Assembly (NCBI RefSeq): GCF_013385985.1
Contig: NZ_JACAOY010000034.1
Location: 1-32,157, forward strand
Length of the DNA stretch: 32,157 nucleotides
Reading direction: 5' to 3'
Source: Pseudomonas sp. B6002
Lineage (GTDB): Bacteria > Pseudomonadota > Gammaproteobacteria > Pseudomonadales > Pseudomonadaceae
The notes under the pieces were generated by a model that was given only the letters and a program-made list of their open reading frames with translations, ran no database searches and was not told where the DNA came from. The position numbers and the translations under genes were made by a program. Position 1 is the first letter of the stretch. Every line of letters starts with the position of its first letter. Shown in pieces: positions 7,837 to 21,136 of this stretch.

Positions 7837-7901
7837 CTCCTAGGATGGCCCCCTCGCTTGACCCCAAGCGAGAGGGCATCAGGCCCGCAAATGCCTAGGA
7901 G
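7837..7901 (+). promoter_or_regulatory. Leader hairpin that can mask a ribosome binding site
   Basis: CTCCTAGG (7837-7844) is perfectly complementary to CCTAGGAG (7894-7901), and the latter contains the AGGAG ribosome site (7897-7901) of the lipoprotein gene starting at 7909. The loop between them holds a strong inner hairpin: 7850-7859 pairs with 7866-7876 with one bulged A, around the loop GACCCC. If folded, the messenger would hide its own ribosome site. Complementarity is seen directly; a regulatory role such as temperature or protein-controlled opening is inference. Confidence 0.5.
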
Positions 7902-7908
7902 TCAAACC

Positions 7909-8301
7909 ATGAAAATGACCTGTGTGAGCAAACGCCTGCGCCGCTCGGCCTGGGCCGTGATCGTCGCGGGAGTGCTGGCAGGCTGTGCCGCGACCCCGCC
8001 ATCCGAGCAAAAAACCACCCTGGCGCGTGATTCGGTCGGGCGTGCCCTGGCGGCGCAAGCCACCCAATTCGCACCGCTTGAGATGAAAACCGCACAGGAC
8101 AAGCTGGCCCGTATGGAGCAAGCCATCGGCGAAAAAAATTACGTCCTGGTCGACAGCCTGGCCGAGCAGATCGAAGTCGACGCCAACCTGGCCGAAGTCA
8201 AAGCCACTGCCGTGCGTAAACAACAGGTTTTGAACCAGGCGCGCGAGGGCATCCAGGTGCTCAAGCAGGAAATGCTCAACGCCCCCGCGACCACCCACTG
8301 A
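7909..8301 (+). CDS. DUF4398 outer-membrane lipoprotein
   Basis: A 130-residue small lipoprotein. The start at 7909 is chosen because AGGAG sits seven bases upstream and the product then begins with a proper lipoprotein signal: basic KRLRR, a hydrophobic stretch, and lipobox LAGC with Cys26. Ala follows the Cys, so Lol sorting should send it to the outer membrane. The mature part is a charged, mostly helical DUF4398 domain (EMKTAQDKLARMEQAIGEKN region, then KQQVLNQAREGIQVLKQEM). Only 10 bases separate it from an OmpA-domain lipoprotein that begins with a related helical segment, so the two likely form one envelope complex. The role of DUF4398 is not known to me; peptidoglycan or envelope anchoring is a guess from the partner. 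Confidence 0.88.
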   Translation: MKMTCVSKRLRRSAWAVIVAGVLAGCAATPPSEQKTTLARDSVGRALAAQATQFAPLEMKTAQDKLARMEQAIGEKNYVLVDSLAEQIEVDANLAEVKATAVRKQQVLNQAREGIQVLKQEMLNAPATTH

Positions 8302-8311
8302 GGAGCCTCCC

Positions 8312-9085
8312 ATGCGTGCCACTCTCGTCATACCTGTCCTGTCGGCCCTGACCCTGGCCCTGGTCGGGTGCGCCACCCCACCGGAAAACCCGCAACTGCT
8401 GCAAGCGCGCAGCCAGTTCTCCACCCTGCAGCAGAACCCTGCGTCCAACACCCTGGCGGCGGTTGAAACCCGCATTGCGTCCAACGCGCTGGACCGCGCC
8501 AACCAACTGTCCCTGCACAGCCGTACCGACCCGAAGATCGACCAGCTGGCGTACCTGGCGACCCAGAGAATCGCGGTGGCCGAGCAAACCATCATCAGCC
8601 GGCAAACCGATGCCCAGCTCGACAATATCGCAGTTGACCGCACCCAGGTGCAGCTCGACGTGCGCACCGCGCAACTCAAGGCGTTGCAGGCAATGAAGGC
8701 CCAGCCAACCGAGCGCGGCCAGGTGGTCACCTTTGGTGATGTGCTGTTCGATACTGGCAGGGCCGACTTGAAGCCGGGCAGCCAGCGCGACTTTCAGGCA
8801 CTGGCGGATTTCCTTTTGCAAAACCCGGAGCGCCAGCTGCGTGTCGAGGGTTTCACCGACAGCACCGGCAGCGATACCTTCAACCAGAGCCTGTCCGAGC
8901 GTCGTGCCCAGGCCGTCGCCCGTGGCCTGCAACGGCTTGGCGTGGGGATCGAGCGCATGGCCGTCATCGGCTACGGCAAGCAGTTTCCGGTGGCCGATAA
9001 CCTCAGTGCGCAGTCACGCCAGTTGAACCGTCGCGTGGAAGTGATCGTGTCCAATGATGGGTCGGCGGTCAGCGCACGTCGCTGA
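8312..9085 (+). CDS. OmpA-domain lipoprotein with DUF4398-like N-terminus
   Basis: A 257-residue outer-membrane lipoprotein: signal peptide with lipobox LVGC (Cys20, followed by Ala), a helical DUF4398-like region (about 30-125), then a C-terminal OmpA peptidoglycan-binding domain (about 140-250). The OmpA domain shows FDTGRADLKPGS, RVEGFTDSTGSDTFNQSLSE followed by RRAQAV, and NRRVEV. The conserved Asp and Arg that hold diaminopimelate in this family are both present. It should tether the outer membrane to the cell wall. GAGGAG precedes the ATG. It forms a two-gene unit with the small lipoprotein, under the leader described at 7837-7901. A 10-base palindrome TGATCGATCA (9124-9133) lies after its stop; I see no clear terminator. 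Confidence 0.92.
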   Translation: MRATLVIPVLSALTLALVGCATPPENPQLLQARSQFSTLQQNPASNTLAAVETRIASNALDRANQLSLHSRTDPKIDQLAYLATQRIAVAEQTIISRQTDAQLDNIAVDRTQVQLDVRTAQLKALQAMKAQPTERGQVVTFGDVLFDTGRADLKPGSQRDFQALADFLLQNPERQLRVEGFTDSTGSDTFNQSLSERRAQAVARGLQRLGVGIERMAVIGYGKQFPVADNLSAQSRQLNRRVEVIVSNDGSAVSARR

Positions 9086-9534
9086 GAAGAGTTGATGCGA
9101 TTACGCGAGAGGTGGGTGTGGGGTGATCGATCAGCAAAGTCTTTTACTCGGCCTTGGCGATAAGTGTAATTACCACACTCGTCCCGACGGAAAATGGCAT
9201 CAACATCACTCCACTGATTGATGAATACCCCGCCACGAATCCGGCGTTTGATGGAACGGTGGTGTGATTCATGCCGAGGGGTTGGCACAACGGCGGGAGG
9301 GCAGGCCTGCATCATTGCTGATGATGGGCGGTGAAGAAGAGCCGGCCCACCCCGTCGTGCTGACGCAATCCCGGAGGGGATAGGATGGGGGAACAAAAAA
9401 CACTTGGCCAAGTTGCAACGAGTCGAAGGGCTAAAGTTTGTGTGCCAGGTGTTTCCCGATTTAAATCATGGGCCGATGTTGCCCGCCTCCTTGCGTTACC
9501 TGTTGGAAAAAAACTGCGCAATCCTAGAAGGCTT
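9086..9534. other. 449-base gap between OmpA gene and STAND gene
   Basis: No gene I can support. Minus-strand bases 9135-9240 encode a protein-like fragment (FINQWSDVDAIFRRDECGNY then TYRQGRVKDF) inside an open frame that also runs antisense into the OmpA gene. It may be the remnant of a broken gene. A plus-strand frame opens at 9385 but runs antisense into the STAND gene and has no recognisable content. The minus-strand run TTTTTTT near 9507-9513 lies just past the STAND stop but has no convincing stem in front of it. GC is lower here than in the OmpA gene, so the left edge of the accessory segment probably lies close to 9086. Confidence 0.5.
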
Positions 9535-12500
9535 TCAGACCGTCGCCGGTTGCGGTATCCAACGAAACTGCCGGTAATCATGGACGATTGTGCGCAATGC
9601 CGAGTCAATGTCTTTATCTTCGGTGAGCTGCCGCGCCAATGCATCTCTATGGGGGCTGCTGGACTTGCACAGTGCAATAACGATGACTCTCCCCAGCATT
9701 GGATCAATACGGTACAACTCTTCCAGATGCAGCCTGAGTTCGTGCTCAGTCAGTTGGCTATAAAGGCGCTGGAAAGGCTTATCCAAGCGATGGCAAATCT
9801 TGCGATTCTGCATTTGGCTCAGTTGATCGATGGAGTGGCTACGCAAGACCGTTAATGCTGCGTTGTTTGCGTCTGGAAGGTCGCCTCGCACCAAGTAGAT
9901 ATCCACTACCCAGCCGGCAAGGCTAATCAGTGAAGGCCCTGCACCGGGTCGCAGGGCAAAGGTGACAAGCCTGTCAAGAGTAGCCTTTCCTAGAGACTGT
10001 CCATAGCTGCAAAGGATGTGTTGCAGCGAAGGGGCGATATGGTCTTTCACGTTCACGCAATCATCTGGAACACTGTCGAGCAACTCACAGAGCGTGCGTT
10101 CTGCATGGCTGGCAGTGGTGCAACTGACAAGGAGTTTTTGCGCCGCCGTGTGCGCGCGCGTCTGGCGCTCCGTTGCTTCTCTTTGCACCCAACTCAGGGC
10201 CTGGATAGGGTCGACTCGTTCAATCAGTTGGTAAGTGATCAGTTGATCGAGCAGCAGGTAGGCCGAATATTGATGCCTTGAGGCATGAGCAAAGCAAAAG
10301 CTCTGAAGTGCGGGGGCATGTTGCTTGGCTATGCGATACAGGGCGTCTTGTCGTTGAGTGCCAAGCGTCTTCACCAAGGCGGCATTCGCCAGTTGACTGG
10401 ATTGGGCCTTGATGGCCAGGTTCAGCGCCATGTCCAGATGGTCTGGTGTTCGCAAAAGGCCAGGCAGTGCCGCGCAGAGTATTTCGAGATGATGAGTGTA
10501 TGGCTGCGGCGTCTTCGAAATGATTGCCAGGGCCGCTGTTGCATTTTCCACCTGTTCAACCACTGCCATTGGCAGGAGGTGTCGCAGAAATGCGCTATCA
10601 AGCCACTGATGGGTCGGGATTGTCGTGATGAAACGTTGCAGCGAAGGAGGGCAGGCGCCGTTCTGCTTAAGTTCGCGGATGAAGTCGAAAATAACCTGCG
10701 CCTTGGCCTTTTCTTTTTGTGGGCATTGGTCTGTTGGAATGCTTAGATCAGCCAGTAACCGTTCACATTGTTGCACCGCAAGCGCTCGCGCAGGATCAGA
10801 GGAGTGCTGCGGCGCCTTCAAGAGCGGAGCCACCAGGTGATGAAGCACTATTCGCAGGGCCTCGGCGTCTAGGTCGATATTCAAGCGCCCGATGAACCCT
10901 ATGTATACCGCTTCAAGCGCGGCGTGGTGGGTGAGCGAGAGCGCGTTGATCGACAGTCGAAGCGCGGTACTGTCTACCAATGCGGTACGTTCGCCCTGCA
11001 GCGGGCATAGAGCAGGGAGGTGAAGCCATAGACTGCTCAGGCAGCGTGCAGCCGGTTCCCGTAATGTGCGAAGTGCACGTTCTGACTTTTGATCCATCCA
11101 CGCGGTTAATTCCGCTCCCAAAAATTGCCCTTGAGCCGACGTGACAGAGTGAGCACACAGCTCTAGGAAATTGATGAACGTGGCTTTTTCACGGAACAGA
11201 TCAAGGCACTTTATTGCTGTCTCCAGCACGAACGTCATGTCATGGTTGATTCCTGCGCGCAAGATGTCCGCTACGCTTTTCGCGACGTTTGTACCTTGTT
11301 GTCCTGCTGCACACAGGTCGTCGATCAGGTTGTTGTGCGTGATAAGTTGTTTGCAGGCCAACCAATCGAAAGGCGCCAGCCAAATGATCATCTGGGATGT
11401 GGACTGCAGCAGTCTCCAGAAACGATGGGGAAGGCACGCTTGAATCACACTACGAACTTCTTGGGTACGCACGGGTTGAAGGTGATAAATGAACTGGGCA
11501 TAGCGTTTCATTGCGAAGGCGTTACCTGCTGAGGCTTCTCTTAGCATGTAGGCTCGCCCACTGTCGTAACCGATCCTGTCCATCATGTGCAGTCGTAACG
11601 CCGCGCCTGAAGGTCCCGGGTGTGTGAGGGTAAGGAGATCACCCACGGTTGAGTTGATCAGCTCGTTGTCTCGTTTCAGCGAATTTGCACAGTGCCAGAG
11701 TTGGTGCTCTCGGATCGGGAACTCGAAGCGATCGTTTGCGTGATCAATCAGGGCTGTCTTGCAGGCTGTGGCGCAGAATTGGCTGTTCTCGGCCATTACC
11801 AGACCTGCGATGTATTCGAAGAACGTCTGGTGAAAAAACTCTACTCTTCCACCGGAGCGCCTTAAAAGGTGGCGGCTGACCAACGCGTTCAGTTCATCCT
11901 GATCAACGTCCATCTCTATTCCAAGTTGAACGAATTGCTCATCCGTCAACGCGGGGACTTTCAAGGTGAACATTGCGCCTGCGACCTGTTTGGCGGCGGG
12001 CAGAAGGTTCTGGCCACGGGCGGTGGCAAGAGGTGCGCCGGCTCGCACGTCTGCCTTGACGCGGTCTACCAAGTAACGGCGATACAGATCATGTGCGTTG
12101 ATGTCTTCAGGGACTTCGGCGGGAGCATAGAGCTCAAACAGCATGCGTAGGGCCAGGGGATTCAGGCACACACCACGTGCAGGCCGACCCGAGGCGACCA
12201 GGGCTATCAATCGGTCTGCGTACAAAGATGCTTGCGCGTCGGCATTTGCCCCGCAATAAAACGCTGCGCAGTAGGATCTCAGCGCCAGGGCAAACTCTTC
12301 AGTGCTGTATTCACGTAAATGCAGCGCAACCGACTGTGGTACGAGTTGGTCCAGCTTTATATCGGCCACTTCTTCAGGGCGGGTGGAAAAGACGAGGGAT
12401 GCGCCTGACTGCACTAGCTCATGAATGAGCTTCAGCGCTGGTGCAGCCAGTTGTTCGCTGTGCATCAACACGTCGAAAGTATCGACGCCGACCACGAACC

Positions 12501-13665
12501 GAACGCCACCATCACGCAGAGTGGCGGCATGGTTGAGCAGAGCGGTGCGGACTTTCACGAATTGCTCGCTGGGGATCAGTGTCGCCAGTTGCGTGGCAGT
12601 CAACGCCAGGGTTACCGTGTTGCCTTTCTCGCGCCAACGGCGCAGGCACCCCCATAGGAGGCTGGTCTTCCCGAAACCTGCGGGTGCAATGACGGCAATC
12701 AGAACTCCTTCGCCGGTAGAGTAATCGGCGTCTTCGATTTTCTGGTCAATTTCGGCTTCTAGTGTGCGTTGGATGTATACCTCATTGATCGTGATCAGTC
12801 GGTCACATCCGTCCTGCCCTTGGGTGCGGGCAATAGCCAATGCCGAGGTTTCCTGTGACTGGTCGAGAGACTGGATCGGAAACTTGCCCTCCAATGCGTT
12901 TTTGATTTCCTCCAGCTGTCGCAGTACGTCCTCTTTTTCCACGACAAACCGAGTCTGGAAAAAGGTGGAAAACACGGCGTCGCGGTGTTGAAGCCAGATG
13001 GCCAAATCTATGCCTTGCACCAGTTTGAGTTTGATTTTGCCCAAGATGTCCTTTACATAGGCCAGTGACTCGCGCTGACCCAGTATCTGCAGTTTTTTGA
13101 ACTCTTCGCGCGCATCGCTCACCGCGTTGGGCAGCAGCGTTGGTTCCTTTTTCAGTACCGTTGCTGTCTCATGAAACAACGACACGGTTTTATTGTTGGC
13201 CGACCGGGAGAGCATTAGGACATAAGTGAAGTCCTGTGGATTGGGCATCAGCTCGGGATTCTGCTTGGCCGCAAGAATGAACCTGCAGATCTGTCTCAGT
13301 GCGTCCGGTTGCTCGAAAGGCTTTGCATAATGTTTGCATTGCACCGCGCCTACTGCGACACCATTTCGATAGAGTGCAACATCGCGACCCAGGTCGCCGG
13401 TGCCTTGCATCAAGGCCGTGTCATCGTGATCAATTTCCAGGCTGCACTGGGTCTTTGCGTAAGAGCCTTGGCCGTCCTGGAATAGGCGATAAACCAGCAA
13501 CTCAAACTCTCGGTCGCCGAGGACTTCAACTGGCACCCTCAACGGCGCAATGTCCTGTGAAGCTTTTGCTTCCAGTTTTTCCAATTCGCGCTTGAGTTTC
13601 GTATCAGGCACCCGGATGGGTGCATCGTCGATCTCGGTGGGTTGGCCCTGGTCCAGGTTGGGCAT
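9535..13665 (-). CDS. Mrr-nuclease/STAND NTPase, putative Avs-like antiphage protein
   Basis: A 1376-residue multidomain protein. The start at 13665 has GGAG seven bases upstream. Residues 47-170 look like an Mrr/PD-(D/E)xK nuclease: Glu55 in REFELLVYRLF, then GTGDLGRDVALYR with Asp95, then QCKHY with Gln109 and Lys111. Residues 290-630 form a P-loop ATPase: Walker A APAGFGKTS (327-335), Walker B VVGVDTFD (391-398), a sensor-like LVFSTRP (424-430), NPLALRML (502-509), and FHQTFFEYIA (611-620), the motif that typically ends STAND/NACHT modules. Residues 630-1376 are helical and repeat-like with no motif I know; in Avs proteins this part senses phage terminase or portal. It is a lone gene in lower-GC DNA. 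It is probably an abortive-infection defence protein; whether it belongs to a named Avs or bNACHT family cannot be told by eye. Confidence 0.82.
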   Translation of the reverse strand: MPNLDQGQPTEIDDAPIRVPDTKLKRELEKLEAKASQDIAPLRVPVEVLGDREFELLVYRLFQDGQGSYAKTQCSLEIDHDDTALMQGTGDLGRDVALYRNGVAVGAVQCKHYAKPFEQPDALRQICRFILAAKQNPELMPNPQDFTYVLMLSRSANNKTVSLFHETATVLKKEPTLLPNAVSDAREEFKKLQILGQRESLAYVKDILGKIKLKLVQGIDLAIWLQHRDAVFSTFFQTRFVVEKEDVLRQLEEIKNALEGKFPIQSLDQSQETSALAIARTQGQDGCDRLITINEVYIQRTLEAEIDQKIEDADYSTGEGVLIAVIAPAGFGKTSLLWGCLRRWREKGNTVTLALTATQLATLIPSEQFVKVRTALLNHAATLRDGGVRFVVGVDTFDVLMHSEQLAAPALKLIHELVQSGASLVFSTRPEEVADIKLDQLVPQSVALHLREYSTEEFALALRSYCAAFYCGANADAQASLYADRLIALVASGRPARGVCLNPLALRMLFELYAPAEVPEDINAHDLYRRYLVDRVKADVRAGAPLATARGQNLLPAAKQVAGAMFTLKVPALTDEQFVQLGIEMDVDQDELNALVSRHLLRRSGGRVEFFHQTFFEYIAGLVMAENSQFCATACKTALIDHANDRFEFPIREHQLWHCANSLKRDNELINSTVGDLLTLTHPGPSGAALRLHMMDRIGYDSGRAYMLREASAGNAFAMKRYAQFIYHLQPVRTQEVRSVIQACLPHRFWRLLQSTSQMIIWLAPFDWLACKQLITHNNLIDDLCAAGQQGTNVAKSVADILRAGINHDMTFVLETAIKCLDLFREKATFINFLELCAHSVTSAQGQFLGAELTAWMDQKSERALRTLREPAARCLSSLWLHLPALCPLQGERTALVDSTALRLSINALSLTHHAALEAVYIGFIGRLNIDLDAEALRIVLHHLVAPLLKAPQHSSDPARALAVQQCERLLADLSIPTDQCPQKEKAKAQVIFDFIRELKQNGACPPSLQRFITTIPTHQWLDSAFLRHLLPMAVVEQVENATAALAIISKTPQPYTHHLEILCAALPGLLRTPDHLDMALNLAIKAQSSQLANAALVKTLGTQRQDALYRIAKQHAPALQSFCFAHASRHQYSAYLLLDQLITYQLIERVDPIQALSWVQREATERQTRAHTAAQKLLVSCTTASHAERTLCELLDSVPDDCVNVKDHIAPSLQHILCSYGQSLGKATLDRLVTFALRPGAGPSLISLAGWVVDIYLVRGDLPDANNAALTVLRSHSIDQLSQMQNRKICHRLDKPFQRLYSQLTEHELRLHLEELYRIDPMLGRVIVIALCKSSSPHRDALARQLTEDKDIDSALRTIVHDYRQFRWIPQPATV

Positions 13666-13764
13666 GGAGCTGCTCCGTAGTCAGTGTGGCAATGGCGATC
13701 GAAAGAGGCGAGAAAGCATACGCGATTTACTCGGCGTTCAGACTCAGCGGATGTTTGTTTCGGG

Positions 13765-13785
13765 CTTATAGTCTCGCCGCGGCGA
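13765..13785 (-). promoter_or_regulatory. Possible promoter/operator of the STAND gene
   Basis: On the minus strand a -10-like TATAAG (plus 13765-13770) lies about 100 bases ahead of the start codon. Three bases upstream of it is a perfect 12-base palindrome TCGCCGCGGCGA (13774-13785), in the position of the -35/-10 spacer. No good -35 hexamer is visible. The palindrome could be a repressor site or simply a GC-rich chance palindrome. The rest of 13666-13904 shows nothing further. Confidence 0.3.
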
Positions 13786-13904
13786 CAGAGTATCCATCAG
13801 CCGCTCCAGTGGGCATGGCCTCATCGGTCTGCGGTGGTGTATGACAATGGGCTTTCCTGAAACATCATTTTACATCCGCATCGCGCCTCTCTATGATCGG
13901 TCGC

Positions 13905-13966
13905 CTGGAGATGGCATTCCTCCTTGACCCAACCGCTGCGTTCCGCAGCTGATGATGCCTACAGAC
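13905..13966 (+). promoter_or_regulatory. Fluoride riboswitch (crcB motif)
   Basis: The sequence follows the crcB-motif consensus: GGAGATGGCATTCCTCC (13907-13923) as the first stem-loop with the conserved GATGGCATTCC segment, AACCGC (13931-13936), a second stem GCTGCG-TTC-CGCAGC (13935-13949), then TGATGATGCCTAC (13950-13962), which closes the pseudoknotted core. This RNA class binds fluoride through magnesium ions and turns on fluoride-resistance genes. It sits about 85 bases ahead of a CLC-F gene, a classic arrangement in Pseudomonas. Confidence 0.93.
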
Positions 13967-13971
13967 ACCTG

Positions 13972-14017
13972 GTCAACTCAGGGCTGTAGGCGTTCGCGCA
14001 TAAACTCCCTCGTTGAT
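13972..14017 (+). promoter_or_regulatory. Possible expression platform of the fluoride riboswitch
   Basis: GTCAAC...AGGG (13972-13983) can pair with CCCT...GTTGAT (14007-14017), about ten pairs with a small internal loop. A T6 run follows at 14031-14036. The T run is too far from the stem for a textbook terminator, so either a different fold is the terminator or control is at translation. Weakly supported. Confidence 0.35.
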
Positions 14018-14048
14018 CCGGCCCCTTTGGTTTTTTGTGGCTGATTCC

Positions 14049-15296
14049 ATGTTCCCGATCAAGCGCCCTGAACAACTCGACCTTATCCCGTACCTGATCA
14101 AATGGTTGCTGCTCGCCAGCCTGGTGGCCGTGCTCGCCGGCAGTGCGTCGGCGCTGTTCCTGTTCTCGCTGGACAACGCCACCGCGTGGCGCGAAGCCCA
14201 TCGCTGGATCATCTGGCTGTTGCCCTTGGCGGGGTTTGCAGTAGGGTTGGTGTACCACTGGGTGGGCAAGCCGGTGGATGGCGGCAATAACCTGTTGATC
14301 GACGAAATCCACGATCCCAAAAAAGTAGTGCCGTTGCGCATGGTGCCGCTGGTGCTGGGCGGCACGCTGGTCTCTCACCTGTTTGGTGCCTCGGTCGGCC
14401 GTGAAGGCACCGCCGTACAGATGGGCGGGGCGCTGGCAGACCAGCTGACCCGGGTGTTCCGCCTGCGGCGTGAAGATCGGCGCATCGTGTTGATGGCGGG
14501 CATCAGTGCCGGCTTTGCGTCGGTCTTCGGCACACCGCTGGCGGGGGCCTTGTTCGGCCTGGAGGTGCTGGCCATCGGGCGCATGCGCTATGACGCGCTG
14601 TTCCCCTGTGTCGTCGCTGCCATCGTGGCCGACCAGGTCGGCCTGGCCTGGGGCGTGGTGCACACCCATTACCCCATTGGCGAAGTGGTGCCGGTGTCAC
14701 TGTGGAGTGTGTTGGCGGTGGCTGCGGCGGGCGTGGTGTTTGGGTTAGTGGGGATGCTGTTTGCCACCGCGGCCCACCGTCTGGGTGCGTGGGTCAAGCG
14801 CATGATTCCCTACGGGCCGCTGCGGCCGTTGCTCGGCGGCGTGGTCATCGCCGTGGCGGTGTGGGCCCTGGACGCCTACGCCTACATCGGCCTGGGTATT
14901 CCGAGTATCGTGCAATCCTTCAATGTGCCGATGGCGCCGTGGGATTGGCTGGGCAAGCTGGTGTTCACCGTGGTTTCCCTGGGCAGCGGTTTCAAGGGCG
15001 GGGAGGTCACACCGTTGTTCTATATCGGCGCTACCCTGGGCAATGCCTTGGCACCGTTGCTGCACCTGCCCTTTGCGATGCTCGCGGGCATCGGTTTTGT
15101 GGCGGTGTTTGCCGGTGCGGCGAACACGCCGCTGGCGACTATCGTGATGGCCATGGAACTGTTCGGCCCGGACATTGCGCCCTTGGCCGCCATCGCCTGC
15201 ATCGCCAGTTACCTGGTCTCCGGGCACACTGGCATTTATCACGCCCAGCGCATCGGCCATGCCAAGCATGAGCGTTTCAAACAGGAGCCCAAGTGA
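14049..15296 (+). CDS. eriC: CLC-F type fluoride/proton antiporter
   Basis: A 415-residue CLC-family membrane protein of about ten or more helices. The start is taken as ATG 14049; a TTG at 14013 lies inside the riboswitch leader, and no strong ribosome site marks either. GREGTAVQM (from residue 117, gating Glu119) carries Thr where chloride CLCs have Pro. The anion-selectivity segment is GGNNLL rather than the GSGIP of chloride members, and the later motif is GSGFKGGEVTPLF. All three point to the fluoride subclass, which exports F- in exchange for protons. The fluoride riboswitch upstream independently supports this. The next gene begins four bases after its stop, so export and the FetAB pair share a transcript. 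The symbol is used in the eriC-F sense. Confidence 0.93.
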   Translation: MFPIKRPEQLDLIPYLIKWLLLASLVAVLAGSASALFLFSLDNATAWREAHRWIIWLLPLAGFAVGLVYHWVGKPVDGGNNLLIDEIHDPKKVVPLRMVPLVLGGTLVSHLFGASVGREGTAVQMGGALADQLTRVFRLRREDRRIVLMAGISAGFASVFGTPLAGALFGLEVLAIGRMRYDALFPCVVAAIVADQVGLAWGVVHTHYPIGEVVPVSLWSVLAVAAAGVVFGLVGMLFATAAHRLGAWVKRMIPYGPLRPLLGGVVIAVAVWALDAYAYIGLGIPSIVQSFNVPMAPWDWLGKLVFTVVSLGSGFKGGEVTPLFYIGATLGNALAPLLHLPFAMLAGIGFVAVFAGAANTPLATIVMAMELFGPDIAPLAAIACIASYLVSGHTGIYHAQRIGHAKHERFKQEPK

Positions 15297-15300
15297 GTCT

Positions 15301-15978
15301 ATGAATGCATTGCTGGAAACCCGCGCCCTTACGCGCCTGGATGAACGCCGAGGCGTGGCATTGTTGCAGCCGACCCATTTCACCTTGAACGCCGCCGACC
15401 GCGTGTCGATCACCGGCGCGTCCGGCTCTGGTAAAAGTGTGTTCCTGCGCGCACTGGCCTTGCTGGATGCGCCCAGCTCCGGGCAGATCCTGTGGAACGG
15501 CCAGCCGATCAGCAACGCGCAGATTCCCCATTACCGGTGCCACATCAGCTACCTGTCCCAGCGCCCGGCGCTGCTGGAGGGCACGGTGGAAGACAACCTG
15601 CGTTTCCCTTTCAGCCTCAAGACCTCGCGCAACCGCAGTTTCAACCTGGCCACGGTCACCACCTTGCTGGAGCACGCCGGCAAGGCGCCGGACTTCCTGG
15701 TCAAGCGTGCCGCCGACCTATCGGGCGGTGAGTCCCAGGTGGTCTCGCTGATCCGCACCCTGCAACTCAATCCTGAAGTGCTGTTGCTCGACGAACCCAC
15801 CGCGGCCCTCGACCCTGCGTCGTCCCGTGAGGTAGAAGCGCTGATCGATGCCTGGTTTGCCGCAGACCGCTCTCGCGCCTGTATTTGGGTCTCCCACGAC
15901 CTGGACCAGGCCCGGCGCATGAGCGACATCCATTTGCAGATGAGTGCCGGCGTGCTGGGCACGGCGGTGCAGCCATGA
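15301..15978 (+). CDS. fetA: FetA-like ABC transporter ATPase (YbbL)
   Basis: A 225-residue short ABC ATPase starting MNALLETRALTRLDERRG. Walker A is GASGSGKS (39-46), the signature LSGGESQVV, Walker B VLLLDEPTAALD, and the H-loop IWVSHDLDQA. The compact size and the partner gene fit FetA/YbbL, the ATPase of the FetAB exporter linked in E. coli to iron homeostasis and peroxide tolerance. It begins four bases after the CLC-F stop; the nearest ribosome-like AGGAG is about 14 bases upstream, so translation may depend on the preceding gene. It overlaps fetB by four bases (ATGA). Sharing a transcript with a fluoride exporter under a fluoride riboswitch is unexpected for this family, as far as I know. 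Confidence 0.88.
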   Translation: MNALLETRALTRLDERRGVALLQPTHFTLNAADRVSITGASGSGKSVFLRALALLDAPSSGQILWNGQPISNAQIPHYRCHISYLSQRPALLEGTVEDNLRFPFSLKTSRNRSFNLATVTTLLEHAGKAPDFLVKRAADLSGGESQVVSLIRTLQLNPEVLLLDEPTAALDPASSREVEALIDAWFAADRSRACIWVSHDLDQARRMSDIHLQMSAGVLGTAVQP

Positions 15979-16766
15979 ACTATCACAACCTCACCGCGCT
16001 GGACATGGGCATTGCTGCCTCGCTGATCCTGATTAACGGCGCGCTGTCGCTGCTGCTGCGATTGGGCCTGGAGCGCCAGTTGCTATGGGCGGCAGTGCGC
16101 ACCGTGGTGCAACTGCTGGCGATTGGTTACCTGTTGGGCTGGGTGTTCGAGTTTGCCTATTGGTATGTGGTGCTGCCGTTGATGTGCGCGATGACCTTGA
16201 TTGCCGGTGTCTCGGCGGCGGGCCGGGGGCGGCGCACGTACAAGGGCCAGCGGGTCGACAGCATTGTGTCGGTGTGGGGCAGCTCGTGGCTGGTCACGGC
16301 GGTGGGGCTGTTTGCGGTGATCCGCATTCACCCGTGGTATGAGCCGCAGTACGCAATCCCGATTCTTGGCATGATTTTGGGCAATACCCTGACCGGTGTG
16401 TCCCTGGGCATAGAGCGCATGACCCAGGAACTCACCTCGGGGCGCAACACCATCGAGATGATCCTGGCCTTGGGTGGTTCACGCTGGGAGGCCGCCCAGG
16501 AAGCCATCCGCCAGGCCGTGCGTGCCGGGATGATCCCAACGCTGAACCAGATGACCGTGGTGGGCATCGTCAGCCTGCCGGGCATGATGACCGGCCAGGT
16601 GCTGGCCGGGGAAAGCCCGGTGGACGCGGTGCGTTATCAGATCGTGATCATGTTCCTGATCGCCGCCTCGTCGGCGTTGGGCACGGTGGGTGCGGTGCTG
16701 CTCACCTACCGCCGGTTGTTCTCCACCAGCCACCGCTTTTTGCGCGACCGCCTGCAAGAGCGCTGA
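15975..16766 (+). CDS. fetB: FetB-like metal-export ABC permease (YbbM, UPF0014)
   Basis: A 263-residue inner-membrane protein with about seven hydrophobic segments. Family hallmarks are GMILGNTLTGVSLGIERM, LALGGSRWEAAQEAIRQA, and MIPTLNQMTVVGIVSLPGMM followed by TGQVLAGESP. These identify UPF0014/FetB, the permease partner of FetA. The start ATG 15975 lies within the fetA stop (ATGA overlap), a tight coupling signal. In E. coli FetAB exports iron; the metal here is not shown by the sequence. It is the last gene of the riboswitch-led unit and is followed by a REPIN that may end transcription from both sides. Confidence 0.9.
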   Translation: MNYHNLTALDMGIAASLILINGALSLLLRLGLERQLLWAAVRTVVQLLAIGYLLGWVFEFAYWYVVLPLMCAMTLIAGVSAAGRGRRTYKGQRVDSIVSVWGSSWLVTAVGLFAVIRIHPWYEPQYAIPILGMILGNTLTGVSLGIERMTQELTSGRNTIEMILALGGSRWEAAQEAIRQAVRAGMIPTLNQMTVVGIVSLPGMMTGQVLAGESPVDAVRYQIVIMFLIAASSALGTVGAVLLTYRRLFSTSHRFLRDRLQER

Positions 16767-16804
16767 CCCCTGCAGGAGCCAGGCCCCACAGGGGATGGTA
16801 AACC

Positions 16805-16894
16805 TGTAGGAGCCGGCTTGCCGGCGATGGCGGCCTGCCGGGTGGCATCTGTGTTGGTTGAACTACCGCGATCGCTGGCAAGCCAGCTCCTACA
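16805..16894. repeat. REPIN (REP family B) between convergent genes
   Basis: Inverted 29-base arms at 16805-16833 and 16866-16894 match at 26 of 29 positions. Each carries the common Pseudomonas REP sequence GTAGGAGCCGGCTTGCCGGC or its close variant, with its own internal hairpin. It lies between the convergent ends of fetB and the idonate dehydrogenase gene, a usual REPIN position, and could act as a two-way transcript end. Confidence 0.9.
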
Positions 16895-16913
16895 CAAGCC
16901 AGCGCCCGCTGGG

Positions 16914-17960
16914 CTAGTCCGGCACGCCGAAGTCCAGCACCACTTTCATCGCCTGGGTCTTGTCCGCTGCCAGCTCGAACGCCTGCACGGCATCGCCGAA
17001 CGGCACGGTGTGGGAGATCACCGGGCGTACGTCGATGATGCGGCGGTTGAGCAAATCCACGGCCTGGGCGAATTCCGGGTGGAAGCGGAAGGTGCCACGC
17101 AGGTCGATCTCGCGGCTCACCAGCAGGTTGAGCGGCAGCGACACATCGCCGCCGAGGCCGACGGTGACCAGCACGCCACGCGGGGCGATGCATTCCAGGC
17201 CGTTGCGCAGGGCCTGGGCACTGCCGGATACCTCGAACATCACGTCGAAGTAACCCTTCTCTGCGGTATAGCGCTTAAGTGCGTCGGCGCCATCGGCCAG
17301 GTTGTGGGTGCGCGTGGCGCCCATTTTTTCGGCGCAGGCGAGGGCGCTGGCGGACAGGTCCACGGCAACGATCTCACCGGCGCCCGCCGCGCGCAGGCTG
17401 CCGATCAGCAGGTTGCCGATGGGCCCGCAGCCGGTCACCAGCACCCGCTTGCCAAACACCGCGCCAGCGCGCTGGATCGCGTGCAAGCCCACCGACAACG
17501 GCTCGGCCAATGCCCCTTCGGCGAGGCTGACTTCATCGGCCAGCACGTGGGCCTGATGGGTCTCTATCACCAGGCTCTGGCGAAACGCACCCTGGATATG
17601 CGGGTAGGGCATTGCGCTGCCGTAGAAGCGCATGTTCAGGCAATGGTTGGGCAAGCCTTGGTGACAATAACGGCAGCCGCCGCAAGGGCGCGAAGGCGAC
17701 ACCGCAATACGCTGGCCGACCTTGAACGCGTCGGCGTCACGGCCCACCGCGTCGATCACCGCCGACACTTCATGGCCGAGCACCATCGGCTCGCGCAGGC
17801 GCACAGTGCCGAAACCGCCGTGCTGGTAGTAATGCAGGTCCGAGCCGCAGATGCCGCCCCGGGCAATGCGCACGCGCAGTTGGTCGGGGGCGAGGGTTTG
17901 CGGGTCATCCTGGGGATCGACCCGCAGGTCTTTCGAGGCGTGGCAGACAATGGCGTGCAT
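16914..17960 (-). CDS. idnD: L-idonate 5-dehydrogenase (zinc alcohol dehydrogenase family)
   Basis: A 348-residue medium-chain dehydrogenase. Catalytic zinc ligands are Cys38 (GICGSDLHY) and His63-Glu64 (VLGHEV). The structural zinc cysteines are 93, 96, 99 and 107 (CGGCRYCHQGLPNHC). The nucleotide-binding loop is VTGCGPIGNLL. The family includes sorbitol, threonine and idonate dehydrogenases. The neighbouring gluconate 5-dehydrogenase and gluconate-type permease favour L-idonate to 5-ketogluconate. The start at 17960 has GGAG six bases upstream. It is the last gene of a minus-strand operon, 14 bases after the SDR gene, and a REPIN follows. Substrate is assigned by context. Confidence 0.85.
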   Translation of the reverse strand: MHAIVCHASKDLRVDPQDDPQTLAPDQLRVRIARGGICGSDLHYYQHGGFGTVRLREPMVLGHEVSAVIDAVGRDADAFKVGQRIAVSPSRPCGGCRYCHQGLPNHCLNMRFYGSAMPYPHIQGAFRQSLVIETHQAHVLADEVSLAEGALAEPLSVGLHAIQRAGAVFGKRVLVTGCGPIGNLLIGSLRAAGAGEIVAVDLSASALACAEKMGATRTHNLADGADALKRYTAEKGYFDVMFEVSGSAQALRNGLECIAPRGVLVTVGLGGDVSLPLNLLVSREIDLRGTFRFHPEFAQAVDLLNRRIIDVRPVISHTVPFGDAVQAFELAADKTQAMKVVLDFGVPD

Positions 17961-17974
17961 AAGGTTCTCCAGGA

Positions 17975-18748
17975 TTACAGCGACGCGGTGATGCCACCGT
18001 CGACGTACAGAATATGACCGTTAACGAAGCTCGCCGCATCGCTGGCAAGAAACACCGCTGCGCCCGCCAGCTCCTCGACATCGCCCCACCGCCGGCTTGG
18101 GGTGCGTTGCACCAGCCAGTCGCTGAACTCGGGGTTGGCCACCAGGTTGGCGTTAAGCTCGGTCTTGAAGTAGCCCGGGCCGATACCGTTGACCGTCAAA
18201 CCGTGCGGGCCCCAGTCGATGGCCATGCCCTTGGTGAGCATTTTCAGCGCGCCCTTGCTCGCGGCATACGGCGCGATGCCCGGGCGGCCCAGTTCGCTTT
18301 GCACCGAGCAGATGTTGATGATGCGCCCGCGTTTGCGCGGGATCATCGCCCGTGCCACCGCCTGGCCCACCAGGAACGCACTGTCGAGGTTGGTGCTGAT
18401 CAGCTCGCGCCAGTGCTGCTCGCTGTAGTCTTCCAGCGGGCCGCGGCGTTGCATGCCGGCGTTGTTCACCAGGATCTCCAGCGGGCCCAGGCGTTCTTCG
18501 ATGTCGGCCACGGCGGCCTGGATTGCCGCGCTGTCGGTCACGTCGAATGCCTGGGTGTGTACCTGCAGGCCTTCGGCAGTGAGCAGGGCCGCCGCGTCGC
18601 GCAAGGTGCTGCGGTTGCGCCCGTTGAGCACCACCTGCGCGCCGGCCTGGGCCAGGCCACGGGCAATCGCCAGGCCGATCCCGGCGCTGGAACCGGTGAC
18701 CAGCGCGAGCCGGCCATCGAGGCGGAAATTGTCTAAAACGCTTCTCAT
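17975..18748 (-). CDS. idnO: Gluconate 5-dehydrogenase (SDR family)
   Basis: A 257-residue short-chain dehydrogenase. The cofactor motif is TGSSAGIG (18-25), NNAG is at 95-98, and the catalytic triad is Ser148, Tyr161 and Lys165 (YAASK). IdnO/Gno enzymes reduce 5-ketogluconate to D-gluconate, which would pass the idonate dehydrogenase product to gluconate. The opening FRLDGRLALVTGSSAGIGLA and the ending HILYVDGGITASL match that group well. TAGGAGAGG lies ahead of the ATG. It is 20 bases downstream of the permease and 14 upstream of idnD. No gluconate kinase is encoded in this window, so phosphorylation must happen through a gene elsewhere. Confidence 0.88.
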   Translation of the reverse strand: MRSVLDNFRLDGRLALVTGSSAGIGLAIARGLAQAGAQVVLNGRNRSTLRDAAALLTAEGLQVHTQAFDVTDSAAIQAAVADIEERLGPLEILVNNAGMQRRGPLEDYSEQHWRELISTNLDSAFLVGQAVARAMIPRKRGRIINICSVQSELGRPGIAPYAASKGALKMLTKGMAIDWGPHGLTVNGIGPGYFKTELNANLVANPEFSDWLVQRTPSRRWGDVEELAGAAVFLASDAASFVNGHILYVDGGITASL

Positions 18749-18768
18749 GGGTTACCTCTCCTAACGCT

Positions 18769-20121
18769 TCACACCACCAACGACAGCAGCATGATGAACC
18801 CCAGGGCGGCGAAGGAGAGCACGGTCTCCATCAGCGTCCAGGTCTTGAAAGTCTCGACGACGGTCATGTTGAAGTACTGCTTGACCAGCCAGAAACCGGC
18901 GTCGTTGACGTGGGACAGCACCAGGGAACCGGCGCCCGTGGCGAGCACCAGCAGCTCGCGGTTCACCCCCGGCATCAGGCCGATGACCGGTGCAACAATG
19001 CCCGCGCCGGTGATGGTCGCAACCGTTGCCGAGCCGGTCGCCACGCGAATCACTGCCGCCACCAGCCATGCCAGCAGGATCGGCGAAATCTCGGCACGCA
19101 CCGCCATATGCCCGATCACATCACCGACGCCGCTGGCCACCAGCATCTGCTTGAAGCCACCGCCCGCGCCGACGATCATCACAATCGCGGCGGTGGGGGC
19201 CAGGCTCGAATCCAGCAGTTTGCTCAGTTGCTCCCGCGAGAACCCGCGCGCCGCCCCAAAGGTATAGAACGCCAGCAACAAGGCCGCGAGCAGGGCGGTG
19301 ATGGGGTGGCCGATAAAATCCATCCACACCCGGAAGGTGGCGTCGGCGGCGAAGGCCACGTCGGCGAAGGTCTTGAGCAACATCAGCACCACGGGCAGCA
19401 GGATGGTGATGACGGTAATCCCGAAGCCCGGCAGGTTGTCACCCGAGGACTCCTTGGCCAGTTGCTCCATCAGTTCATCCGAGGCCTTGCCCGGCACATA
19501 GCGCGAAATCAGGTTGCCAAACAACGGCCCGGCAATCACCGCCGTGGGCAGCCCGACGACCAGCCCGTAGAAAATTGTCTTGCCGATATCGGCGCCGAAG
19601 ATGCCGATGGCCAGCAACGGCCCCGGGTGCGGCGGCACCAGCCCGTGCACCACCGACAGGCCGGCGAGCAGCGGCATGCCGACCTTGATCAGCGACAGCC
19701 CGGTGCGCCGCGCCACGATGAACACCAAGGGAATCAGCAACACGAAGCCGATTTCAAAAAACAGCGGAATGCCCACCAGGAACGCCGAAAACATCATCGC
19801 CCAGTGCACACGCTGTTTGCCGAAGGCGCGGATCAGGGTGCGGGCGATTTGGTCGGCACCGCCGGAGTCGGCCATCAACTTGCCGAGCATGGTGCCCAGG
19901 CCGAGGATGATGCCGACGAAGCCCAGTACACCGCCAAAACCGTCCTGGAACGACTTCATGACCTTATCCACCGGCATGCCGGAAGTCAGGCCGAGGAAGC
20001 CTGCGGCCACGGTCAGGGCGACAAAGGGGTGGACCTTGAGGTGGGTGATCAACAATATCAATCCGATAATCGTGACCAGCGCATCGAGCAGCAGATAAGT
20101 GTCGTTAGCCATGCCGAGCAT
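18769..20121 (-). CDS. idnT: Gluconate/idonate permease (GntP family)
   Basis: A 450-residue inner-membrane protein with about twelve hydrophobic segments, of the GntP/GntT/IdnT family. Hallmarks are the N-terminal HPFVALTVAAGFLGLTSGMP, the central VHGLVPPHPGPLLA (about residues 159-172), VGAGGGFKQMLVASGVGDVI, and RVATGSATVATITGAGIV. It imports a sugar acid with protons. The start ATG 20121 is preferred over the one three codons later because AAGGAGG lies six bases upstream. The leader contains AACAAGGA and AACAATGA, each one base short of the AAnAAnAA Crc/Hfq motif, which would be sensible for a sugar-acid transporter. It is the first gene of the minus-strand operon, divergent from a LysR gene. 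Confidence 0.92.
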   Translation of the reverse strand: MLGMANDTYLLLDALVTIIGLILLITHLKVHPFVALTVAAGFLGLTSGMPVDKVMKSFQDGFGGVLGFVGIILGLGTMLGKLMADSGGADQIARTLIRAFGKQRVHWAMMFSAFLVGIPLFFEIGFVLLIPLVFIVARRTGLSLIKVGMPLLAGLSVVHGLVPPHPGPLLAIGIFGADIGKTIFYGLVVGLPTAVIAGPLFGNLISRYVPGKASDELMEQLAKESSGDNLPGFGITVITILLPVVLMLLKTFADVAFAADATFRVWMDFIGHPITALLAALLLAFYTFGAARGFSREQLSKLLDSSLAPTAAIVMIVGAGGGFKQMLVASGVGDVIGHMAVRAEISPILLAWLVAAVIRVATGSATVATITGAGIVAPVIGLMPGVNRELLVLATGAGSLVLSHVNDAGFWLVKQYFNMTVVETFKTWTLMETVLSFAALGFIMLLSLVV

Positions 20122-20154
20122 GGTGCCTCCTTGTTCTCATTGTTATAGGCCAGG

Positions 20155-20179
20155 CCCTGTCATATCGTGTATGACAGGG
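20155..20179. promoter_or_regulatory. Perfect 25-base palindromic operator candidate
   Basis: CCCTGTCATA (20155-20164), a TCGTG spacer and TATGACAGGG (20170-20179) form perfect 10-base arms between idnT and the divergent LysR gene, 34 bases ahead of the idnT start codon. Such symmetry suggests a dimeric regulator. The inner CATA-N5-TATG does not fit the LysR T-N11-A rule exactly, so a GntR- or LacI-type protein encoded elsewhere is also possible. Confidence 0.55.
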
Positions 20180-20219
20180 TGTTACTTCACCGCAGGCGCA
20201 GGCGAGCGTCCAATTTTCA

Positions 20220-20248
20220 TTTGTGATCGGGTGATCAATGTTTGTGAT
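20220..20248 (+). promoter_or_regulatory. 21-base-phased direct repeats ahead of LysR gene
   Basis: TTTGTGAT occurs at 20220-20227 and again at 20241-20248, exactly 21 bases apart (two helical turns). They end 15 bases before the LysR start. A TGATC/GATCA pair also lies between them. This could be an autoregulatory site or chance. Confidence 0.3.
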
Positions 20249-20263
20249 AAGCAGGCTGAATTG

Positions 20264-21136
20264 ATGGAGCTCAAGCACTTGCGCGCCTTTGTGGTGCTGG
20301 CCCAGGAACTGCATTTCGGCCGGGCGGCGGCGCAGCTTTCGATCGTGCAACCGGCGTTGAGCATGCAGATCAAATTGCTGGAGAGTGGCCTGGGCGTGCG
20401 CTTGCTGGACCGCAACCGCCACTCGGTAACCCTGACCGATGCAGGCCGGGCGTTTCTGCCCGAGGCCCAGGCCACCTTGCACCAGGCGGCGCGTGCGGCG
20501 GACGCGGCGCGGGCGTCCAACCGTGGCGAAATCGGTCGGGTGCGTTTGGGGTTTGTGTCGTCGGTGCTGCCGCAACTATTGCCCGAATTGATCCGCGCCG
20601 TGCACCAGCGCTACCCGCGCATCGAGCTGGAACTCAAGGACATGCCCGGGCCGGACCAGGCGGCCGCGCTGAAGAACGGCCTGCTGGACTTCGGCCTGAT
20701 GCGCCTGCCCGCCAGCCACCCCGGCGTGCAGACCCGCGCGGTGCTGCACGAGCACTTCTGCGTGGCGTTGCCGGTGGATCACCCGCTGGCGTCCAAGGCC
20801 TGCCTGCATCCCGCCGACCTGCTCCAGGTGCCGGTGTACATCCTGGCGCGTCGCTATGCGCCGGGTTTTTACGACGAATTCATCCAGGCGGTGGGCCTGC
20901 CCCTGGCGATCGCCTCCGAGTTGGGCGAGTTCACTACCATGCTTGCGCTGGTGTCTGCCGGGTTGGGCGTGGGTGTGTTGCCTCAGCAGGCGGCACGGGC
21001 ACTGCCGGCCAATTGCGTGTCGCGGCCCTTGGAGCTGGGCGCGTTCCAGGCTTGCACCGGCCTGGCCTGGACCGAGCTGGACAGCGCGGTGAAGACCACC
21101 GTGTTCAACCTGATCGTGGAATTGTTTGGCGAGTAA
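20264..21136 (+). CDS. LysR-family regulator, likely of the idn operon
   Basis: A 290-residue LysR-type regulator. The N-terminal winged helix-turn-helix reads MELKHLRAFVVLAQELHFGR, then AAAQLSIVQPALSMQIKLLE and RNRHSVTLTDAGR. The C-terminal two-lobed effector domain runs from about residue 90 (VRLGFVSSVLPQLLPELI onward). ATG 20264 is used because the LysR domain begins there; upstream codons are leader sequence. It is transcribed away from idnT across 142 bases, the usual LysR layout, so it probably controls the permease and dehydrogenase genes, perhaps with a sugar acid as inducer. E. coli uses the LacI-type IdnR for the same genes. The domain looks closest to CatM/BenM-like members by eye. 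Confidence 0.88.
   Translation: MELKHLRAFVVLAQELHFGRAAAQLSIVQPALSMQIKLLESGLGVRLLDRNRHSVTLTDAGRAFLPEAQATLHQAARAADAARASNRGEIGRVRLGFVSSVLPQLLPELIRAVHQRYPRIELELKDMPGPDQAAALKNGLLDFGLMRLPASHPGVQTRAVLHEHFCVALPVDHPLASKACLHPADLLQVPVYILARRYAPGFYDEFIQAVGLPLAIASELGEFTTMLALVSAGLGVGVLPQQAARALPANCVSRPLELGAFQACTGLAWTELDSAVKTTVFNLIVELFGE

Follow-up and report, generated by a model that had tools for sequence, protein, structure and literature searches.

A Probable Horizontally Acquired, One-Gene NLR-Like Antiphage Receptor with an Mrr-Type Nuclease Head in a Pseudomonas Genome

A 32,157-nucleotide stretch of the 6.68-Mb genome of Pseudomonas sp. B6002 (contig NZ_JACAOY010000034.1; hereafter the window) contains, at 9535..13665 on the minus strand, a gene for a 1376-residue protein, P0001, composed of an N-terminal nuclease, a switch of the STAND type (signal transduction ATPases with numerous domains), and a helical sensor, as judged from the open reading frame and from full-length relatives. 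This gene is probably a horizontally acquired, one-gene antiphage receptor resembling the nucleotide-binding, leucine-rich repeat receptors (NLRs). The assignment draws on the domain order, the conservation of catalytic and nucleotide-binding residues, the NLR-like predicted fold, and purifying selection, and also on the foreign composition of the gene, its absence at the matching site of other genomes, the defence-type neighbours of its relatives, and the association of related switches with other effectors.

Among 399 sampled Pseudomonas genomes, 13 match the protein at E 1e-10, and the match is full-length in two, its own and that of Pseudomonas sp. GM48 (genome G246, contig NZ_AKJM01000182.1). 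Searches of the order (390 genomes) and of the phylum (398 genomes) each gave two matching genomes, the own one included, the other match being restricted to the nuclease part. A single-protein scan of genome contigs gave no relative; an alignment-based scan of an 84,980-species genome collection, which reaches only places with the patterns EFFHQTF or EHQLWHC, gave 11 related loci, 3 of them full-length. The full-length relatives are the proteins of GM48 (55% identity), Paraburkholderia panacisoli, and Paraburkholderia silvatlantica (31% each), and the four members can be aligned end to end. No relative was found in viral contigs, in phage records, or, by megablast, in Escherichia coli genomes, and NCBIfam gave nothing for the window protein at E up to 1.

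The open reading frame starts with ATG and has no internal stops, and it is not a chance frame, because the alignment with the GM48 protein spans residues 1–1375 and contains 12 gap positions. A GGAG directly upstream, the probable ribosome-binding site (13673..13676, minus strand), is found in the window and in GM48 and is not upstream in the one Paraburkholderia copy checked. The gene is under purifying selection. In the comparison with GM48 the proportions of differing synonymous and nonsynonymous sites are 0.746 and 0.283, the synonymous sites being near saturation, and the ratio of nonsynonymous to synonymous rates between the two Paraburkholderia copies is 0.22 for the whole gene. By part, the NACHT core has a ratio of 0.05 between these two copies, the nuclease one of 0.12, and the sensor one of 0.32, the changes counted being few. 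The same three parts of the window protein are 71%, 64%, and 47% identical to GM48, and its winged-helix region is 59% identical. Promoter-like sites (2 against 2.3 in shuffled sequences, both on the opposite strand) and terminator-like sites (7 against 4.8, standard deviation 2.3) were also counted.

The N-terminal part (residues ~41–240; 12946..13545, minus strand) is a predicted Mrr-like nuclease of the PD-(D/E)xK type, identified by profile and alignment. A profile of the four members detects the N-terminal 18–260 residues in other proteins, and 15 of the 20 distinct nuclease-bearing loci were aligned (L032, L007, L011, L012, and L041 were excluded). M1, F54, E55, G93, D95, L98, Q109, C110, K111, and F236 are invariant in all 15; E55, D95, Q109, C110, and K111 are likewise invariant in the four full-length members. 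The ordered E…D…QxK set, with catalytic-type Asp95 at 13381..13383 and Gln109-Cys110-Lys111 at 13333..13341 (both minus strand), is accompanied by matches to Pfam Mrr_cat in 14 of the 15 loci at E up to 1 (best 1.1e-5) and to the PADLOC model of LmuA, the Lamassu nuclease, in 10 of 15 at E up to 0.01 (window protein, 4.3e-9). A match of the nuclease profile to a "putative monooxygenase" in the PDB (0.0016) was set aside, as it covers positions 151–224, away from the catalytic residues.

The switch begins with a NACHT-like nucleoside triphosphatase (NTPase) core (residues ~290–520; 12106..12798, minus strand), indicated by a Pfam score under the cutoff and by AlphaFold, Foldseek, and VIA-align, and continues into a winged-helix and helical region in the predicted structure (residues ~521–690; 11596..12105, minus strand). 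Its alignment shows the Walker A motif APAGFGKTS (residues 327–335; 12661..12687), a Walker B motif with the expected aspartate, VVGVDTFD (residues 391–398; 12472..12495), and a conserved histidine motif, EFFHQTFFEY (residues 609–618; 11812..11841), all on the minus strand. We take the FHQTF-type histidine motif to have a winged-helix role in STAND proteins, and H612 to be the likely counterpart of the NLR-type winged-helix histidine. In the four full-length members, Walker A is invariant at A327, P328, G330, G332, K333, T334, and S335 (A329 and F331 vary), Walker B at V392, D395, T396, F397, and D398 (V391, G393, and V394 vary), and the histidine motif at E609–E617 and A620 (Y618 and I619 vary); because EFFHQTF was itself a scan pattern, its presence in the Paraburkholderia members is not independent evidence. 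By VIA-align the nearest folds to the modelled switch are the NACHT domains of NLRC4, NLRP3, and NOD2, consistent with a NACHT fold that has a winged-helix end. Elsewhere in the same genome there is another NACHT match (L084, G000:C21:43913-44242), at 34 bits and over the Pfam cutoff, in a 483-codon open frame.

Residues 700–1376 (9538..11568, minus strand) form an all-helical, loosely HEAT/ARM-like sensor in the predicted structure. The AlphaFold model of residues 600–1376 is all helix, its first 33 residues having a per-residue confidence (pLDDT) below 50, and the structural matches of the sensor are weakly to HEAT/ARM rather than TPR proteins. The sensor, with 677 residues, is the most divergent part of the protein; no sequence homologs outside the four-member family were found in what was searched, and its stretch of the profile is unmatched in all 11 loci of the wider switch group described below. 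The original prediction, made from the sequence alone and without a strand, has held up for its three parts: D95, QCK 109–111, and both Walker motifs lie at the residues it named, FHQTFFEYIA is present at residues 611–620, the Mrr-type nuclease and the STAND ATPase agree with the residue conservation and the NLR-type fold just described, and the long helical C-terminus without familiar motif is seen as such in the model and in the searches.

The same prediction had called the protein Avs-like, and here the outcome is mixed. An N-terminal effector, a central STAND NTPase, and a C-terminal repeat sensor, the general definition of the Avs (AVAST) systems, were all found. Avs4 has an Mrr nuclease effector and a portal sensor, and Avs3 has a Cap4 nuclease effector and a terminase sensor. 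With them the window protein shares the order nuclease–STAND–repeat and the first two ranks of a Foldseek search of the PDB with residues 1–690 (Avs3 first, Avs4 second); it differs in the lack of a sequence match, in a sensor whose structural matches lean weakly to HEAT/ARM rather than TPR proteins, and in being shorter, as had been proposed (1376 residues against PDB chains of 2028 and 1541). Searches of PDB sequences, a library that contains Avs3, Avs4, and Avs5, gave no Avs chain with phmmer (E up to 10) or with the profile (E up to 1). The three phmmer matches were weak (best 2.2e-4, to a PLS9-PPR chain, single stretches not being significant), as were the three of the profile (best 0.099). 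PADLOC, which holds an Avs4 model, gave no Avs model for the window protein, for the GM48 protein, or for pieces of the window protein; there was also no match to Avs1 or Avs2, the presence of these models in PADLOC not being established. Avs3 and Avs4 are not among the 50 VIA-align rows, which is not evidence against either. On sequence, Avs membership is not supported. A divergent true member of Avs1–4, which would form Avs-like tetramers and use a TPR-type repeat to sense terminase or portal, would also fit the three-part order, the two Foldseek ranks, and the contact of a switch relative (L025) with the PADLOC Avs4 model at E 0.064; we consider such membership unlikely. Because the nearest folds by VIA-align are the NACHT domains of NLRC4, NLRP3, and NOD2, the label "nuclease-NACHT NLR-like protein" fits no less well than "Avs-like."

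Another set of analogous systems is provided by the bacterial NACHT proteins bNACHT25 and bNACHT32 (clade 6), which, as described in PMC12169576, have like the window protein an N-terminal PD-(D/E)XK DNase, a central NACHT, and a C-terminal helical sensing part. They carry an NCH1 sensing domain (PMC12169576), whereas the window protein has the 677-residue helical part and a NACHT score under the Pfam cutoff; the likeness is one of described architecture. Pfam gave no match to NCH1 or SNaCT, the presence of those domains in the library not being established. According to the same paper, the nuclease of bNACHT25 and bNACHT32 is required for protection, DNA is degraded on infection by MS2, and protection by both works via DnaJ (PMC12169576). 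This alike architecture raises the alternative of a guard-type receptor, whose sensor would watch a host component, as bNACHT25 does via DnaJ, instead of binding a phage protein. The large and most divergent sensor is weak evidence the other way, as it suits direct contact with a changing ligand, and we regard guarding as unlikely. Avs1–4 are described in PMC12931631 as cutting phage and host genomes upon recognizing terminase, portal, or another phage protein. The window protein would work like these bNACHT and Avs systems. By sequence it has no match to Avs3–5 and does not reach the NACHT cutoff, and its predicted fold is NACHT-like. In sensing it may, by analogy, resemble either bNACHT25/32 or Avs1–4. 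A literature search gave no recognizable description of the protein; the main Avs and bNACHT papers lay outside this search, and absence from print is not claimed.

The nuclease head is also found on other partners. Lamassu is a multi-gene SMC system; its LmuA is the nuclease matched above, and the window protein differs in having the nuclease fused to a STAND switch. The same head occurs in Pseudomonas proteins with open frames of 1549–1591 codons (7 of the 399 genomes; L016, L017, L018, L020, L023, and also L007 and L011), 27–28% identical in the nuclease in five of them, and in L021, a fusion with ABC-3C CTD3 that is 21% identical. These differ from the window protein in their partner, CTD3 or AAA_16; the latter was seen in the two of the seven long proteins that were scanned, L016 at 36.8 bits, over the cutoff of 32.6, and L017 at 31.5, just under it. 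L016 and L017 match PADLOC PDC-M54A at 6.7e-9 and 1.2e-8, over ~80 residues, and these ~1550–1590-residue nuclease-AAA proteins are a candidate separate defence family. Shorter proteins of 485–501 residues with the same head occur in genomes and on two plasmids (L019 5052-6509, L022 5178-6635, L024 4608-6104, L026 5917-7383, and L027 5905-7410). Those on plasmids are annotated as hypothetical, the E. coli one lying a few kilobases from phage tail genes and a recombinase; L019 and L024 have neighbours on the same strand. The Mrr type of the nuclease, its LmuA match, and the plasmid-borne relatives of the nuclease would suit an enzyme that acts against plasmids or in the manner of type IV restriction, with foreign DNA itself as the signal. 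The protein has no match to a DNA-binding or methyl-DNA domain, the rest of the chain consists of a STAND switch and a helical repeat, and the weak PADLOC matches of residues 240–1376 (GajB 0.0017, mad8 0.013, HamB 0.021) span 35–72 residues and lend no support, making such an enzyme distinctly improbable.

The acquisition of the gene is suggested by its surroundings. Its GC content is 0.548, against 0.638 in the remaining window, and it is the only gene of a low-GC stretch (9087..13887) whose flanking DNA is conserved, the two sides in different relatives. Genome G122 matches the window as far as 9086 and again from 21136, with 2.6 kb in place of 12 kb and no copy of the gene; in G059 the match over 18 kb is limited to 7889-9081; in G023 the DNA of a ClC channel gene (13888-15259) is conserved at 76% and the gene is not there. 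Because these flanks match without the gene, an insertion of ~4.8 kb, with this gene alone on it, probably took place next to the ClC gene; its bounds come from two different genomes. The variable region of G122 (9086-21136, 12 kb, both flanks conserved) is wider than the gene. An open reading frame at 13959-14669 (minus strand) was rejected as a partner gene, being mostly antisense inside the ClC channel gene and without family match.

Near the GM48 copy are an ABC-3C MC3 gene, accompanied by one for a DUF3732 ATPase, and a piece of an integrase under the Pfam cutoff; near the Paraburkholderia copies, an integrase (Arm-DNA-bind_3; L031) and AbiTii (L032). Both Paraburkholderia copies adjoin a common minus-strand cluster of four genes (12232-16825 in L031 and in L032), which in L031 codes for Abi_C and SIR2_2 proteins and two unknowns, and which is possibly a defence operon of its own. 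Within ~8 kb of the relatives' genes, no neighbour is common to the window and GM48, to the window and either Paraburkholderia, or to GM48 and either Paraburkholderia (tblastx, E 1e-8). As no neighbour is shared in these comparisons, there is no conserved partner gene, in line with the proposal of a single-gene system. A cellular regulator without a defence role, such as a MalT-like STAND transcription factor, is highly improbable: a nuclease head with intact motif stands where the DNA-binding domain would be expected, the gene is full-length in only 2 of the 399 genomes, and its foreign composition and the neighbours of its relatives also argue against it.

Several observations weigh against an antiphage NLR-like receptor. 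Pfam NACHT scores 19.5 bits on the window protein, under its cutoff of 26.7, and the GM48 protein has no Pfam match at E 0.1; Mrr_cat is likewise under its cutoff (E 0.0081, 16.7 bits, against 21). No structural match falls on the nuclease itself, the VIA-align result for residues 1–690 covering mainly 237–690, and a PDB profile search with it gave no nuclease. The AlphaFold models are of medium confidence (pLDDT 75–77; predicted TM-score, 0.49–0.55), and the Foldseek TM-scores to Avs3 and Avs4 are low (0.21–0.27). The scanned neighbours in the window are metabolic, transport, and envelope genes and not a defence island.

From the evidence as a whole we infer oligomerization, nuclease activity, a phage trigger, and cell death for the NLR-like receptor. 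At rest the NACHT-like switch would hold ADP, clamped by the winged-helix H612, and the C-terminal helical superhelix would keep it closed. It would be opened by a ligand of phage origin, most likely a phage protein to which the helical sensor binds; ATP would then bind at K333/D395, and the proteins would assemble. DNA cleavage by the clustered N-terminal Mrr-type nucleases (E55, D95, Q109/K111) would put an end to the phage and probably to the infected cell as well.

The switch has a wider distribution than the whole protein. Eleven loci beyond the four full-length members share it, L036–L040 only over its 465–634 part; L025, L028, and L029 came from tblastn on plasmids and the other eight from the motif-pattern scan, in which the presence of the motif proves nothing because it was the scan pattern. 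An unbiased test is given by six plasmid proteins matched by tblastn to the switch (five from Streptomyces, one from a cyanobacterium), all of which have FFHQT[FL] with an EY no more than four residues further on, as well as a Walker A; one of them, L088, fails the family profile at E 1e-3, and the annotated gene of L090 has only 557 residues. The NACHT cutoff is passed by two switch relatives, L034 (39.7 bits) and L036 (31.3 bits). The heads vary: trypsin and TIR in L025, SEFIR/TIR in L039 (which shares only the 497–629 part), and an Mrr-like nuclease in the Fluviicola (Bacteroidota) protein. No Pfam head was found in L028, L029, L035, L036, and L040; the head scan was partial for L033 and L034, and L038, L088, L089, and L090 lay outside it. 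In L025 (4450-9327), from a Streptomyces plasmid, a single chain combines trypsin, TIR, and the FFHQTF switch, and a separate serine protease gene overlaps it immediately upstream; the cyanobacterial L088 (3290-6904), also on a plasmid, directly follows a cas1 among the annotated genes. FFHQT[FL] switches are found in Proteobacteria, Bacteroidota, Actinomycetota, a cyanobacterium, an Omnitrophota metagenome-assembled genome, and archaeal metagenome-assembled genomes. We tentatively propose that they may form a class of prokaryotic NLR-like receptors of their own, outside the named Avs and the NCH1/SNaCT bNACHT groups, among which heads (Mrr nuclease, trypsin and TIR, SEFIR/TIR) have been exchanged within the class, and that the HEAT-like sensor of the window protein may recognize a phage ligand new for bacterial NLRs.

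To our knowledge, the phage features detected by bacterial NLR-like proteins are known for only a handful of them. In the window protein a common effector, the Mrr nuclease, is combined with an NLR-like switch and with a large helical sensor that turned up here in only four genomes. The search for its trigger should be straightforward because the system is a single gene whose loss-of-function residues are obvious. With its varied heads, the wider switch clade would be well suited to studying how NLR modules move between effectors.

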